A DNA stretch of 64,000 nucleotides from Polytrichum commune (taxonomy: Eukaryota; Streptophyta; Polytrichopsida; Polytrichales; Polytrichaceae), in contig OX485803.1 in the NCBI GenBank assembly GCA_950295325.1, positions 11,408,001 to 11,472,000 on the forward strand, read 5' to 3'. The translations under genes were made by a program, and so were the position numbers. This document shows, one piece after another, positions 20,728 through 63,460 of this stretch. Below the pieces are notes generated by a model. It had not been told where the DNA came from. It ran no database searches and was given only the letters and a program-made list of their open reading frames with translations. Within the stretch, counting starts at the first letter, position 1. Every line of letters starts with the position of its first letter.

Positions 20728-20740
20728 GTAGCCCATGTAA
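20728..20740. repeat. LINE target-site duplication (left)
   Basis: GTAGCCCATGTAA, repeated exactly at 23689-23701 on the other side of the LINE. Confidence 0.88.
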
Positions 20741-20959
20741 TAATAATAATAACAACAACTTCGGTCTCCGCAGGAGACTGACGTGAATTAAGTGTCTGTT
20801 CGATCTACCTTCAATCCCGAGCCCACAGGACAGAGGTATGAAGGAGAAGATCTACTCCTCCCTTTCGAGAGTAGACACTTTAGACACAAGAAACCAATAA
20901 TGTAGACTACACCTAATATAATACCCCGTGCCCTTTACCCCTAACTTTTAAGTTCTGAG

Positions 20960-22399
20960 TTATGGGGGGTCAGGATTGTGGGGGAGTGGTTGGTGGTTTT
21001 CAATTCTCCTTTTATGGAGGAGGATAGACATGGCATATTGTATTGCAATGGTGTTAATATTTTTGAAAGTAGTTTTGATGGAGGCCATGGGTATTTTGAA
21101 TTTGGACTCTAGTGCTTTCATAGATGGGATGTGGGCAGTCGCTCTGGCCCCAGCAGTGATGACAATGAGTGGGTCTATTTTCCATCCTCTGGAAGCAATG
21201 CTAGCAATTAGTGGGCTATATTTATTATTTTTTGCTTGAATTGCTTCTGGGGAGAATCTATCATTACAGTATGTGGATTCAATGAATTGTATGGTAAGGT
21301 TAGGGTCAACGTCGCTGGGGGGGACATTCTGATATGGCAATCCCTTAACACAAAGGATGTCAGGTCTAAATCTTGCGTTGTAGTGACATCTTTGTGTATT
21401 ACATGTGCAGGGGAGTAGCCAGTTGGGAATTGTGTTTTCTTGGGGGTTGTTATTGAAGGTGCCAGCATTCATGAGGGTAAAGCATCGGGATTTTTCTGAT
21501 GAGATTAGGAGCTTTCTAATTTCTCCAACTGCTTTGTTATGTCTTTTAACTCTGAGTGAGTGTATATGTTGGCATTTGCATTTAAGTAGTACATGTAGCC
21601 ATGTATCTGGTTTGTTTGTGTTGCATATGGGGCACGTAATAGTGGGATATCTTTGGTGACCAAAAAACAGTTGTTTCCTCGCATTACCCATGTAGGTTCC
21701 TGTGCGGAATTTGATGAGGCATGATTTTTGTTTGTCGGTGATAGCGGGATTTGCCCAAAAGTCGTTCGACAACTCGTTGTCTATATCTGTGTATTCTGTC
21801 CATTTACGTGTGTTGGGGGTTTGTGTGGCCATAATTGCTAGGTTCGTTTCCCTATCATATTTTTTAATTTGTTTTTCTAGGAATCTGACTGGGCCTTTGT
21901 CCGGAACTTTGTCCATGGAGGCCCATACATCTTTTTGGTAATAGTAAGGGGTGGCGTGGGCGTGTTCGTGTGAGTGAGTGGCAATTTTGTGCTCTAATTC
22001 TAATCCTTCTTTTGCTAGTTTGTCTGCTTTTTCATTTCCGTCAATGTTGACGTGTGCTCTAACTTTGTATAGAGTGATTGGTTGTGTCCTTGTTTGAAGA
22101 ATTTTTACCATGGAGGCTAGTGTGGTTTGGTCTGGGTGACTATTATGAAGTGTGGGGTGTTTAATTTGCGTGTTAAGCAGGTATAATACATTCAGACTGT
22201 CTATGAATATGAATGCGGGTTCGTTGGGGTATTGTGTGTTTATAATACTTAGCGCGTCGTGGATAGCAATCATTTCTGCTCGCAATATGTTTTGGTGTCC
22301 ATGTAATCTATTGGCGATGTTTAGCCCTTTGGGGCTGTAGATACTGTATCCAGCTCTTTCTCTTCTCCATTCCCCAGGGGCTATTTCTTTGGGTTTCAT
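20960..22399 (-). CDS. LINE ORF C-terminal half: RNase H, CCHC knuckle and PD-(D/E)xK-like endonuclease
   Basis: This 479-codon frame starts at an ATG that is not the true domain start: in the same frame just upstream lies NYYTDGSF, holding the first RNase H Asp. The other active-site residues follow: Glu in LRAEM, Asp in FIDSLN and Asp in GNEKADKLAKEG. So the DEDD set is complete and the enzyme would cut RNA in RNA/DNA hybrids. Next comes CPIC-x8-H-x4-C (CPICNTNKPDTWLHVLLKC), a zinc knuckle typical of LINE C-termini. Then RFRPDIL, IQFIESTYCND and AKNNKYSPLI are placed like the PD, E and K of the restriction-like nuclease that nicks target DNA in R2/Dong-type elements. The protein ends soon after, 219 bp before the element's 3' tail. 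It is a retroelement fragment, unlikely to be expressed by itself. Confidence 0.82.
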   Translation of the reverse strand: MKPKEIAPGEWRRERAGYSIYSPKGLNIANRLHGHQNILRAEMIAIHDALSIINTQYPNEPAFIFIDSLNVLYLLNTQIKHPTLHNSHPDQTTLASMVKILQTRTQPITLYKVRAHVNIDGNEKADKLAKEGLELEHKIATHSHEHAHATPYYYQKDVWASMDKVPDKGPVRFLEKQIKKYDRETNLAIMATQTPNTRKWTEYTDIDNELSNDFWANPAITDKQKSCLIKFRTGTYMGNARKQLFFGHQRYPTITCPICNTNKPDTWLHVLLKCKCQHIHSLRVKRHNKAVGEIRKLLISSEKSRCFTLMNAGTFNNNPQENTIPNWLLPCTCNTQRCHYNARFRPDILCVKGLPYQNVPPSDVDPNLTIQFIESTYCNDRFSPEAIQAKNNKYSPLIASIASRGWKIDPLIVITAGARATAHIPSMKALESKFKIPMASIKTTFKNINTIAIQYAMSILLHKRRIENHQPLPHNPDPP

Positions 22400-23688
22400 A
22401 AAGGAGCCATCAGTGTAGTAGTTGAATTGGGGTGGAATTTTAGAGGTAGATTTGTTTGATAGGGTGGGAGTTGTGGGGTGGGGATGTTATTGTTTGAGAG
22501 TATATTTGGGTAGTTTGATTTAGACCACTTTTTACTTGAATTCACTGTGATGTTTGAAGGAGTGGGTGGTGCAATTTGGGTGTGGCTTTGGAATATTTGG
22601 AGATTAGCTGCTATGTCTTTTAGTAATTTCATTTGTTCGGGGGTGCCTATGTTATTGTTTTGGTGGTGTACACAAAATATGTGTAGGGTAGACGGTTCTT
22701 TTTTTGTAATATTGAGTTCGGGAGGTATTGTGGGTTCTTCATATGCAATCGTATCAGCTGCAAAGTGGGCAATGACGTGTGTGTCCAGAAAAGGACCTAT
22801 GTGTGGGTTTGGATTTTTGTACCAGTCGGTATCCGGGGATATAATTATAGTGATTGTATATGGGTCATTGTGGGCTGTCATGCGAGCCCAGTGAATGGCT
22901 TGTTGTAAGTGAATTGCGGTGTGGGGGTGAGCGTAGCCTATTCCTTGCCATTTATGGTCAAACGCTTTTCCTAGGGATCCAAATATTATGTCACGCGAGA
23001 ATGGCGAGTAGAATTGGGAGAATTGCGTGGGGCATGTGACTGGGGATAAGAAGTATGAATGGGTGATATTGAATGTGGTTATTAGGAGATCTAATATTGG
23101 GGTCGGTAATGTGTATTAGGCACGTTTGAGTGGGTCATTCTTCGAGATTCGGTATTTGTACCTTTGATATAGCCAAACAATTTCAGTTTCGAAGGATTGT
23201 GTGGGTGGTTCTAAGTCATGTGTGGTATATTGTGCCAATTGGTATTGTTTCCATAACCACATTAGTCTGGTTTTCGGGATGGTGATGAGGTGCCGACCAT
23301 TGTCTTCGTATATGTGGGCGACGTCAAATTGTATTTGGATAGTATCGGAATTGGTTTCGATGTCATATTCTGGGTTACATTTATTAATGGAGATATGTGC
23401 TAGTGGGATTATTGTGGTAGGTGTGACATATCTCGTGTCTCTTTGTTGTTCTGTGGAGAAGCAAACATTAATAATGTTTGAGAAGTGTTTGTGTTGTTTT
23501 TCCGTGTAGTAGTGGGTAAGGAGGCCGGTGTTGTGGTTGCATGTGTTGGCATCGCAATAGGAATATAGGTCCCTTGGCGTTTGCCATTTGTTGTATGTGT
23601 GATTATTTGTTGTAGTCCATTGGCATAGGTATGATGTGATTGTTCTTTTTATTCCGTTATGGTCGGAAGATTGTTTTTGTTTGTGAGC
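22396..23688 (-). pseudogene. LINE ORF, upstream part (unassigned domain), broken by TAA and frameshift
   Basis: One reading frame runs from the LINE's 5' breakpoint (23688) to a TGA at 22398-22396, with a single in-frame TAA at 23118-23116. A Met-initiated frame beginning at 23796 is misleading: its first part, before 23688, is host flanking DNA fused in frame by chance. Downstream of the TAA come the segments TLPTPILDLL, FFSPVT-like FLSPVT, FGSLGKAFDHKW, GIGYAHPH, AIHWARM, TITIIISPDTDWY and DTHVIAHF. I cannot assign this about 250-residue region; its layout (TP, then W-x-G, then -HPH-, then a hydrophobic strand with SPxxxWY) loosely recalls phage Dam-type methyltransferases, but the DPPY/NPPY motif is absent. 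The frame moves by one phase relative to RNase H somewhere between 22396 and 22487. Confidence 0.7.
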
Positions 23689-23701
23689 GTAGCCCATGTA
23701 A
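23689..23701. repeat. LINE target-site duplication (right)
   Basis: GTAGCCCATGTAA, identical to 20728-20740. It marks the 5' truncation point of the LINE. Confidence 0.88.
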
Positions 23702-24387
23702 CTAATAGGGAGTTTCTTTAGTTTATTTGCCACGTCTTGGGGTTCATATACAAGTTGGCTCTCTCTCTCTCTCTTCACACACAAGTCTGAAGGCATGTGA
23801 CCATTGCAATCTAAGAGCTCTCATTGGTCGAAAGGGTGGAGACTATCCAAGTTCATTTCACACATGAAGGTGAAGGTCTAAATGTCCAAAGAAGACTTCA
23901 TGGATGAAAAGTCTACATGAAGTCCTACATGGCAGACTTTGGATAAAGTTTCATGGTCTCCTAGAATTTTCGTCATGCCCACTTCCAAGAGGTGGGCATG
24001 ACGCAAATTCCTAAAGACCATGACTTTAAAAAAAATAAAAAATAAAGTAGGACAAATTTCAAGACAAAATTCCAAAATAAATTTCAAGACATACAAACAC
24101 CACCAAGTAATTCTCTCAAATTGATAGAGTTTGAGACATATTTATATTAAACCAACTCCTCCCCTCTTTTTCCGACAATAAAACATACAATGGTCCCGCA
24201 AACACGGTCCATTCTCACTTCACACTATGCTTGAGGGCCCGTGACCACATAAAACGGCTTTCCCAACACCCATGGTACGGCCTTTGGATGAGAGTCTAAG
24301 GGTCCTCACCATTACAAGGTCATGGCTCTTGGCTCATGTGTGAAGTGGCCCTTATGTCTACTTTATGGACGAGGTTGTGATGGATGA
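23702..24387. other. Decayed MITE of the GGGCC family with an internal hairpin
   Basis: The right end GTGTGAAGTGGCCC stops at 24351 and is followed by TTA, matching the complement GGGCCACTTCACAC of the other TTA-flanked elements. The stretch 23890-23935 (complement GCCATGTAGGACTTCATG) matches 33345-33380. No intact left end found. A 32-nt-arm hairpin is at 23951-24023. A CT repeat lies at about 23761-23774. Confidence 0.5.
23951..24023. repeat. Imperfect long hairpin
   Basis: Arms 23951-23982 and 23992-24023 pair with five mismatches; the inner 12 bp (CGTCATGCCCAC / GTGGGCATGACG) are perfect around a 9-nt loop. It probably is the core of the decayed MITE, but the size and shape are also those of a small-RNA precursor. 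Confidence 0.75.
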
Positions 24388-24407
24388 GAAATATTTATGG
24401 AGTAATA
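24388..24407. repeat. SINE target-site duplication (left)
   Basis: GAAATATTTATGGAGTAATA, identical over 20 bp to 24772-24791. Confidence 0.93.
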
Positions 24408-24771
24408 GATAGAAACTCCAACCCCTTTCAAGCAAGGGGCCGGCGTGAATAAAGTGTCCGTTCGTAATGCCAATGACCCGATGCCCACTGGACAAGGGGA
24501 CATTGGGACAAATACTACTCTCCCCTTTCGAGGATGGACACTATAGTGACACACTATACAAGTTCCTAGCTAGCCACTAGTGCCTTGAAGATACCGGACA
24601 TGGTATCCCCCCAAAGGGCTTTGAGGTACCCATACAACAAGGTCCAAGGACCCCCCACCATAGTTGGGTGGACTAAGGTAGTGAGCACCACGCCGGCATG
24701 GGGAATAGAACCCACAACCTCCTCATTGGGGGTCATGAGCCCTAACCACCAAGCCAAGGCCCGTGGTGCCT
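24408..24771 (-). mobile_element. tRNA-derived SINE whose tail matches the nearby LINE
   Basis: The element is bounded by a perfect 20-bp direct repeat. On the minus strand its head carries an A-box-like TGGCTTGGTGGTTAGGG and a B-box-like GGTTCTATTCC (one mismatch to the consensus), the internal polymerase III promoter of a tRNA-derived SINE. Its 3' part (24530 to 24415) is homologous to the LINE 3' UTR: for example CGTGAATAAAGTGTCCGTTCG at 24444-24464 against CGTGAATTAAGTGTCTGTTCG at 20782-20802 (plus-strand reading), and CCTTTCGAGGATGGACACT against CCTTTCGAGAGTAGACACT. A stem-loop CCCCTT-TCAAGC-AAGGGG (24422-24439) takes the place of the LINE stem-loop. It is therefore probably copied by that LINE's machinery. 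Confidence 0.9.
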
Positions 24772-24791
24772 GAAATATTTATGGAGTAATA
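24772..24791. repeat. SINE target-site duplication (right)
   Basis: GAAATATTTATGGAGTAATA, marking the 5' end of the minus-strand SINE. Confidence 0.93.
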
Positions 24792-61640: not shown

Positions 61641-62062
61641 CAAAAATTTGGAAGCTATGGTTAGAATTGCTTTGAAGGGGCCAGATGAGACCTTTGATAA
61701 TATCACTATAGAGGCAATTCCTTTGTGAGAAAATGGAACTAAGTACTACCGTAGCTTACAAGCAGCTTCCCGCATGCACCGGCGAATATTTAATTATTTT
61801 GGAAAAATGATGTTCGTCACCTCCAAAATGAATTTTTTTAAATCGATTTTTTTGAAAAATAAATACTCATAAGTTCGACTTTCATCCAGAATACTGTTCA
61901 TTTTTCATGGCCGTTTTATACAGTATGCATTAAAGACTAGTGGCTGCTCCTTCATTTAGCTTTCCCTAATGTTCACTTAACTTCCCTAATTTCATTAGGT
62001 GGCGAGTCTTATTGACAAGTTTGGTTATGGTTTAGGGTTGTGTGTGGAGAAAATGAGAGGCT
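61641..62062. other. 5' flank of the DDE transposase gene
   Basis: AT-rich; would hold the transposon's 5' part. I could not find a terminal inverted repeat because the other end lies outside the window. Confidence 0.45.
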
Positions 62063-63460
62063 ATGGCGAAGCAGAAGCTTTTAAGTAGTTTGTTTACTAC
62101 AATGAGTAAAGAAGAAATGGAGGTCAATATGGAGCGTGAGTTTGCAGCACTTAATTCGAAGTTGGAGCTGGAGAAAGCCATGAAGAAGCCTGAAGCTGAA
62201 AAGAGACATGTAGGGAGGCCCAAGAAGGAGATGGAGGTTGTTCTACTTCCAACAAAAGTGGAGACGCTTGTCAAATCATCATCAAAGTCATCAAGGAGCA
62301 GGGGAACATACATGAACTGGTTTGTGCCCTCCCTATGGGATCCTATTTTTGCAACTGTAAGCAAGCATAGGAATTTGAGGAGTGCGTTACGTTACTTGCA
62401 GCTGAAATATAGACGTCCAGGTGAAACTGTGAGTGTCTATGACAAATTAACCCCAAGCACTTTAAGAGAATGGTTCACTAGCACTGGAGAGTTGAAAGCG
62501 GGTACCAAACAATCTATTTTCAAAGAAACAGCCGCTTATACAGGGGGTGCACAACATGCTTATATCCTTGCCAATCATCCCGAATTGGAAGAGGATATCA
62601 TCACTTTACTCAAGAGCCATCGAGATGCCGGACAACCTTTGTACGCTTCATCTGCTCAAGGTATAATTAGGGGATTAATCCGCATGAGAAACCTTAATTT
62701 ACTTGACTACAACAACAAAACCGGATTTAGGGTTGGCTTGCATTGGACACGCGACTTCTTGAGAACAAACTTGAACTGGAATTTGAGAAAAGCAACAGGC
62801 GCTGCTCGAAAACTTCCAAGCGATTGGGAGCTGAAGGGTTTACAAATGGCTCAAAGGGCAACTTACTTGGTGAGAGCCCATTCAATAACTCCGGAGATGA
62901 TGGTTAACACAAATCAAACAGGAATCCACCTGGTACCAACAAGGGGGTCCAGAACTTGGGCAGAGAAAGGTACAAAACATGTTTTGGTCCATGGCATGGA
63001 GGACAAACGACAGATTACAGTCGCAGTATCCTCTGCAGCAGCATGTAACCTCCTACCATTCCAATTGATATTTACAGGAGCTACTCAAAGATGCCTACCT
63101 CGTATGAATGCTGGACGTCAACAATGTGAAGATGAAGGATGGCAGCTGACATGCACAAGTAACCATTGGAGCAATATGGAAACATGCAAGCAATTTGTAG
63201 AATGCATTCTACAACCATATAGGGAGAAACAGGTGAAGAAGATGGGTTTAGAGGAAGACTCGAAATTGATCTGGCTGTTGGATTGTTGGAGCGTCCACAT
63301 CTCAAAAGAGTTTGTAACATGGGTGAAAGTGACACATCCAAAGATCTTGCTCATTTTCGTCCCAGCAAATTGCACCAGTGTATTTCAGCCGGCAGATGTC
63401 ATTTTACAAAGACCATTTAAACACAGCTTCAGGCAGCAATTTGACAGTTACACGACATAA
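62063..63460 (+). CDS. pogo/jerky-like DDE transposase, with premature stop
   Basis: The frame codes 465 residues. GRPKK at 51-55 is an AT-hook-like DNA-binding motif; a helix-turn-helix-like region follows (about 105-250: STLREWFTS, YASSAQGIIRGLIRMRNLN, WTRDFLRTNLNW, as in CENP-B-type proteins). The DDE_1-type catalytic core then reads MVNTNQTGIHL, WLLDCWSVHISKEF and SVFQPADVILQRPFK. Asp407 and Asp445 are in place, but the first catalytic position is Asn284 (codon AAT) where the family has Asp (N-x-D-Q/E-T-G). The stop TAA at 63458-63460 falls just after the third catalytic block, while the same frame stays open downstream. This is a recent but probably inactive transposon gene. It starts at the first Met with no frame upstream. 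Confidence 0.85.
   Translation: MAKQKLLSSLFTTMSKEEMEVNMEREFAALNSKLELEKAMKKPEAEKRHVGRPKKEMEVVLLPTKVETLVKSSSKSSRSRGTYMNWFVPSLWDPIFATVSKHRNLRSALRYLQLKYRRPGETVSVYDKLTPSTLREWFTSTGELKAGTKQSIFKETAAYTGGAQHAYILANHPELEEDIITLLKSHRDAGQPLYASSAQGIIRGLIRMRNLNLLDYNNKTGFRVGLHWTRDFLRTNLNWNLRKATGAARKLPSDWELKGLQMAQRATYLVRAHSITPEMMVNTNQTGIHLVPTRGSRTWAEKGTKHVLVHGMEDKRQITVAVSSAAACNLLPFQLIFTGATQRCLPRMNAGRQQCEDEGWQLTCTSNHWSNMETCKQFVECILQPYREKQVKKMGLEEDSKLIWLLDCWSVHISKEFVTWVKVTHPKILLIFVPANCTSVFQPADVILQRPFKHSFRQQFDSYTT

Follow-up and report, generated by a model that had tools for sequence, protein, structure and literature searches.

The choice of RNA by the reverse transcriptase (RT) of a long interspersed nuclear element (LINE), and the way in which short interspersed nuclear elements (SINEs) follow it, are known in detail in few systems. 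In the eel, the enzyme of UnaL2, an L2-clade LINE with a single short stem-loop, recognises this 3′ structure and UnaSINE1 uses it in trans. The RT of R2 binds a structured 3′ untranslated region (UTR). This report concerns 64,000 nt of the Polytrichum commune genome (contig OX485803.1), the whole of which is referred to as the window. Two minus-strand elements lie 0.7 kb apart within it: a 5′-truncated LINE and a 364-bp SINE. Their 3′ ends have ~140 nt in common, and this portion is predicted to form the same set of helices in each. A LINE/SINE system of the stringent type is probably represented in the window by a single copy of each partner, with RT binding, mobilisation in trans and transcription by RNA polymerase III (Pol III) as presumed steps. 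We give this reading a probability of roughly 0.82.

Stringent LINE/SINE pairs had been taken to exist elsewhere by an earlier reading of this DNA from its letters (the sequence-only reading), and examples are on record from Chlamydomonas, maize/sorghum and Entamoeba (PMC3747384). In Chlamydomonas reinhardtii, SINEX-1, -2, -4, -5 and -6 share their 3′ ends with RandI LINEs, which carry (ATT)n or (CTATTT)n 3′ repeats, and SINEX-5 and -6 are tRNA-headed (PMC3747384). Dualen encodes both an apurinic/apyrimidinic endonuclease (APE) and a restriction-like endonuclease (RLE), and the Dualen/RandI group has RNase H (PMC4640811). In maize and sorghum, LINE1-1_ZM has a 3′ hairpin in common with ZmSINE2 and ZmSINE3, with compensatory mutations and conserved flanking bases; SINEs of the ZmSINE2 type end in (T)n (PMC3747384). 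The same source mentions the eel experiments and the TGTAA repeats of the UnaL2 system, and lists an Entamoeba LINE with a tail-sharing short partner (EhLINE1/EhLSINE1) under the name EhRLE1 (PMC3747384).

Alignment of the two window 3′ ends with blastn gave 159 columns, 107 of them identical (67%; E 1e-12; raw score 43). When the LINE 3′ UTR was dinucleotide-shuffled 300 times, the top raw score against the window was 24. This confirms the homology proposed in the sequence-only reading, in the same place, and lengthens it from about 115 bp to ~140 nt. In a hand alignment of the tails 80 of 130 columns are identical (~62%). A count by pairing state gave 51 identical of 78 paired columns and 27 of 52 unpaired ones. 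The minimum free energy (MFE) folds of both window copies have a common multi-helix architecture, with P1–P4 in each. The parts of the predicted fold are located as follows.

20761–20880, minus: LINE shared 3′ RNA domain
20873–20879/20791–20797, minus: LINE helix P1
20867–20871/20858–20862, minus: LINE helix P2
20839–20844/20808–20813, minus: LINE helix P3
20821–20831, minus: LINE helix P4
20782–20788, minus: LINE linker ATTCACG
20773–20781/20761–20769, minus: LINE helix P5
24418–24543, minus: SINE shared 3′ RNA domain
24536–24542/24453–24459, minus: SINE helix P1
24530–24534/24521–24525, minus: SINE helix P2
24501–24506/24470–24475, minus: SINE helix P3
24483–24493, minus: SINE helix P4
24444–24450, minus: SINE linker ATTCACG
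24434–24443/24418–24427, minus: SINE helix P5

P1 is the closing stem (AGTGTCY/RGACACT), and P2 is a five-pair hairpin with a GAAA loop. The P3 stem, CCTTCA/TGAAGG in the LINE and CCAATG/CATTGG in the SINE, bears P4, a triloop hairpin of the form GTCC-NGT-GGGC. The linker ATTCACG follows, and then the hairpin P5, which reads TCGGTCTCC-TTC-GGAGACCGA in a consensus built from 20 genomic LINE ends and CCGGCCCCTT-GCTTGA-AAGGGGTTGG in the SINE. As each P5 stands directly between ATTCACG and AGTT, the two hairpins are best read as homologous and compensated, and not as placed independently. The sequence-only reading had reported minus-strand stems of six pairs just 3′ of ATTCACG, kept in position and changed in sequence. 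Both do lie directly 3′ of this block; P5 is longer than six pairs, the change of letters is compensated in what appear to be homologous rather than different hairpins, and the further helices had gone unreported. Taken singly, the two window tails have fold z-scores of -2.7 (2 of 200 shuffles as stable) and -3.7 (0 of 200). A known RNA family was rejected as the identity of the tail: searched up to E 5, Rfam matched nothing in the LINE tail stretch, and its three matches to the SINE stretch were all head-side and far under the gathering scores.

The test for compensatory change in the stem, which the sequence-only reading had proposed, came out in its favour. In the family consensuses (20 LINE ends, 30 SINE copies) all 38 of 38 pairs hold and none is broken; 23 are unchanged, 12 are double changes and 3 are compatible single changes. 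In a MAFFT alignment the pairing is intact in the LINE and in the SINE at 24 of 24 pairs, seven of which have both sides changed. This pairing was equalled by 2 of 500 shuffles, and in slid versions no more than 56% of cells paired. When the arms of P5 were aligned with each other, RNAalifold gave -47.0 kcal/mol for the window copies, the minimum among 1000 column shuffles being -32.2; double changes numbered 11, and none of the 1000 column shuffles had more than 9. The energy z was -8.9 and -9.7 for two kinds of shuffle (500 each). A hand-set model of 31 pairs showed, for the window copies, 11 double changes, one single change and one broken pair, an A.C in the window LINE.

The boundaries and contents of the two elements are given below. 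The boxes of the SINE head were picked by eye against consensus sequences.

20741–23688, minus: LINE copy, 5′-truncated, 2.95 kb, placed by its target duplication, frames, Pfam and relatives; it holds a PCIF1-like domain, RNase H, CCHC, RLE, 3′ UTR and (ATT)n tail
20728–20740: LINE target-site duplication, copy 1
23689–23701: LINE target-site duplication, copy 2
20960–22486, minus: open reading frame (ORF) with RNase H, CCHC and RLE
22396–23115, minus: ORF fragment with the PCIF1-like methyltransferase domain (PF12237), AHPH in place of the NPPF of PCIF1
23116–23688, minus: ORF fragment, N-terminal portion of the PCIF1-like region, 73% identical to residues 301–489 of the relative P0121, with no Pfam match of its own
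20741–20760, minus: LINE 3′ repeat AGTTGTTGTT(ATT)n, its length varying across the family (20 genomic ends)
24408–24771, minus: SINE, 364 bp, complete by its 20-bp target duplication and genome matches
24388–24407: SINE target-site duplication, copy 1
24772–24791: SINE target-site duplication, copy 2
24702–24756, minus: SINE putative tRNA-like head
24746–24756, minus: A-box-like word TGGCTTGGTGG
24702–24712, minus: B-box-like word GGTTCTATTCC
24408–24417, minus: SINE 3′ end AGTTTCTATC; other copies have (TATC)1-4 (30 genomic copies)

The LINE is bounded on either side by the 13-bp duplication GTAGCCCATGTAA, and a stop and a frame change divide its coding region into three open fragments. The SINE duplication matches at 20 of 20 bp. 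The SINE itself is one of the 30 genomic copies that make up the family consensus, from which it differs by one base.

The host assembly comprises 407.8 Mb in 64 contigs; the seven contigs drawn on here measure 42 to 78 Mb. The genome search with both 3′ ends suggested by the sequence-only reading found both families to be multicopy, with 448 first-look candidates for the LINE 3′ end and 1773 for the SINE, both counts being lower bounds. The best 40 of each, a choice biased to recent complete copies, were scored at 93–100% identity (LINE) and 98–100% (SINE). Twenty of the 40 LINE matches and 30 of the 40 SINE matches were examined as loci, the window's own copies (L021, L053) among them. The 20 LINE loci have many different flanks and end in AGTT(GTT)0-2(ATT)n of variable length. 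The 30 SINE loci share the 3′ end AGTTTC(TATC)1-4, and flank repeats of at least 10 bp were found at 26 of them, 25 of these being 10–14 bp long. The SINE is short and multicopy, with flank repeats and defined ends. Twelve longer LINE loci were taken from places already among the scored 3′ ends; none was seen with a single unbroken reading frame across all domains. The locus sets also include two pairs of copies with identical flanks on different contigs, L029/L032 (C36/C6) and L079/L080 (C33/C7), from which it follows that small contigs may partly duplicate chromosomes.

A covariance model built from the two tails was run over 62 loci, picked for holding these LINE/SINE elements. Of its 70 matches, 62 are the expected LINE/SINE ends (50 distinct places, as the 12 longer LINE loci duplicate scored ends), one is a new SINE tail and seven are weak (17–20 bits), lying on the reverse strand in SINE tails or in a decayed tail before (ATT)n. 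The new tail is at L063:559-680 (minus strand; 51.7 bits). The similarity of this element to the main SINE family starts at SINE nt 77; its body is matched at nt 77–261 with 93% identity, reaching slightly into the tail. Downstream of the body there is a tail of different sequence and a (TTC)n repeat. By hand alignment this tail keeps P1, P2 (with a GAGA loop, of the GNRA type) and P4 in new letters, and a five-pair P5-like hairpin comes after. The sequence-only reading had asked after SINE copies that lack the tail: the best 40 of 1773 candidates, which span nt 1–3 to 364, all retain it, and the L063 body carries a different one.

One SINE body may repeatedly exchange or co-evolve its LINE-type tail, an idea that we put forward tentatively and with some doubt. 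The tails would have one architecture but differ in sequence and in 3′ repeat ((TATC)n in the main family, (TTC)n at L063), and each would match a different dual-endonuclease LINE subfamily. This would give several orthogonal lock-and-key pairs on one RNA fold, and the degenerate PCIF1-like domain might be an RNA-binding module of the LINE protein.

Two side observations arose from the same model. At L035:1811-1934 (minus strand) a decayed relative of the tail, at 19.4 bits, is followed by (ATT)n and is perhaps an old LINE end. The model also matches the SINE P3–P4 segment on the opposite strand (24470–24506, plus strand; 16.2 bits), so this segment is nearly self-complementary.

PCIF1 is a cap m6Am methyltransferase (m6Am, N6,2′-O-dimethyladenosine) with the catalytic motif NPPF. 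The domain layout of the LINE lineage is an APE-type nuclease, RT, a degenerate PCIF1-like domain, RNase H, a CCHC finger and the restriction-like nuclease. Pfam was run on 24 of 313 retrieved proteins. In the window LINE, RNase H (PF00075) scores 48.9 bits, and an RLE is present at the C-terminus, which has the R2 fold. The window copy is truncated before the RT, which was found in L050 of the same genome (RVT_1, 98.5 bits) and in relatives; R2 is the nearest to the RT of the relative P0224 among solved structures. The APE-type nuclease precedes the RT in the relative P0312 (Exo_endo_phos_2, 33.0 bits, cutoff 27.4). The same profile falls under its cutoff in P0224 (19.5) and P0256 (21.9), and Exo_endo_phos reaches 15.6 bits in L050 (cutoff 24.5).

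The PCIF1-like domain sits between RT and RNase H, and many metagenome relatives carry it. PF12237 scores 29.7 bits in the window (cutoff 31.1) and is over the cutoff in L045, L050 and several relatives. The relative P0117 could be aligned to PCIF1 structures in the PDB (E 4e-6), with AHPP opposite the NPP of PCIF1. A pattern located the NPPF-equivalent site in 39 of the 313 retrieved proteins, all of which read AHP or AYP there; none of the 313, many of which are without the domain, has N[PI]P[FYW] near FGS.

Judged by its domains, the LINE is of the RandI/Dualen-type layout, and its 20 genomic ends carry an (ATT)n-type 3′ repeat as in that group. A plant L1 with RNase H was excluded by the presence of the RLE, which L1 is not known to have, and by the RT of P0224 being nearest to R2. 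A LINE of the Utopia type was rejected because RNase H here lies downstream of RT, unlike in oomycete Utopia, where it lies upstream and U2 snRNA is targeted (PMC4640811). A search of genome contigs gave six loci with matches confined to the RNase H region. Nothing useful was found in viral contigs searched by protein and by two DNA patterns; the pattern GACACTTWATTCACG occurred in 14 of them, and the covariance model matched only one (E 3.6). P0123, a protein of this LINE family catalogued under Candidatus Nitrosocosmicus, is probably eukaryotic contamination of a metagenome-assembled genome. Elsewhere in the window, a 467-amino acid ORF at 62057–63460 (plus strand) has a DDE_1 transposase domain (34.0 bits) and is presumably pogo/Tigger-like.

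The reading of the two elements as partners is carried by the homology of their tails, the conserved pairing with compensatory change, the copy numbers, the target duplications and the domain content. By analogy with the described pairs, this suggests that the SINE is copied by the LINE enzyme because it keeps the folded shape of the tail. The RT most likely binds the folded ~140-nt 3′-end domain of the RNA that encodes it, and target-primed reverse transcription would begin at the short 3′ repeat. The putative tRNA-like head of the SINE should give transcription by Pol III, and the transcript, with its copy of the folded domain, would be copied in trans. The tails have diverged by paired changes, with several loops and linkers kept, presumably because the shape of the stems outweighs their letters. 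This mechanism follows established stringent LINE/SINE biology (PMC3747384).

The actual partner of the SINE may be a sister subfamily of this LINE that ends in a (TATC)n-type repeat, in which case the two tails seen here would be cousins. We give even odds to this variant, which is compatible with the partnership proposed above. It is suggested by the ~62% identity of the tails and by the differing 3′ repeats, (ATT)n on the LINE and (TATC)n on the SINE; the L063 element, with the same SINE body on a quite different tail, indicates that several tail types exist. On the other side, no LINE with a tail closely matching that of the SINE was seen, no search aimed at one having been completed. The earlier claim that the RT recognises a structure and that the SINE is its parasite is thus supported as to the covarying fold common to both; which LINE is parasitised may differ.

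Several observations weigh against a stringent pair in the window, among them the differing 3′ repeats and the missing LINE just mentioned. The window LINE has one A.C mismatch and an altered loop in P5 relative to the consensus. Its centroid fold has P1 and P5 and lacks P2–P4, and in the MFE fold of the LINE family consensus a longer hairpin, CTACTC/GAGTAG, displaces P2. The Fisher value of 4e-7 for the 38 consensus pairs belongs to a structure picked with both sequences in view, and the covariation statistics are based on two families and three tails. In the two kinds of shuffle, 8 of 500 and 7 of 500 beat the covariation term alone. Moving one gap yields an extra helix with two double changes, in which one more pair is broken in the SINE. 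ARAGORN called no tRNA in the SINE head, and the APE domain exceeds its Pfam cutoff in one relative only.

The folding results, together with the unpaired state of several linkers and loops that rank among the best-conserved blocks, would suit a view in which the tails are homologous, the pairing is incidental and recognition runs through the linear motifs ATTCACG, CGAAC and GTCC-GGGC. The 12 double changes with no broken pair in the consensuses, the absence of any match in energy or double-change count among 1000 shuffles, and the retention of P1, P2 and P4 in new letters by the third tail make this improbable. Less probable still, and rejected, is the insertion of a separate small repeat or structured RNA into both elements, a possibility raised in the sequence-only reading: the block has defined edges in both and unrelated sequence upstream (similarity starts at SINE nt 219), but it stands at the 3′ end of both families, ahead of the 3′ repeat and flank repeat, and the covariance model met it at LINE/SINE ends in 62 of 70 matches, the others being one other-tailed SINE end and seven weak ones, a weak test, since the presence of these elements was the ground for choosing the loci.

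If the two elements are partners as proposed, a plant would offer a pair of multicopy, near-identical elements with a large RNA domain and natural compensatory variants. It would also offer a SINE body that occurs with a third kind of tail, and LINEs whose lineage joins two types of nuclease to a PCIF1-like domain. Structure recognition, partner switching and the role of a cap-methyltransferase-like domain in a retrotransposon could all be tested directly in such a system.

Among known systems, UnaL2/UnaSINE1 differs from the present one in its L2 clade, single short stem-loop and TGTAA repeats. R2 of Bombyx and Taeniopygia resembles it in the RLE-type C-terminus and is nearest to the RT of P0224 among solved structures; R2 is site-specific in rDNA, whereas the window LINE family occurs in many flanks and has extra domains. 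EhLINE1/EhLSINE1 likewise joins an RLE-type LINE to a SINE-like partner and differs in clade; EhLINE1 is not known to have RNase H or APE. The maize/sorghum pair also has a common 3′ end with a hairpin and compensatory mutations, but this measures ~50 nt, forms one hairpin and belongs to an L1-clade LINE. The closest likeness is to RandI/SINEX of Chlamydomonas, in which SINEs share LINE 3′ ends, several with (ATT)n repeats, and SINEX-5 and -6 are tRNA-headed, so that this kind of system is already known. The host is different, and here RT and RNase H have a PCIF1-like domain between them. No covarying multi-helix tail is described for RandI/SINEX in the accessible portion of PMC3747384. A limited search of open-access literature met neither a RandI-type LINE/SINE pair outside green algae, nor a covarying multi-helix tail for such a pair, nor a PCIF1-like domain in a LINE. 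As far as this search extends, the host, the large covarying RNA domain and the PCIF1-like domain are new.

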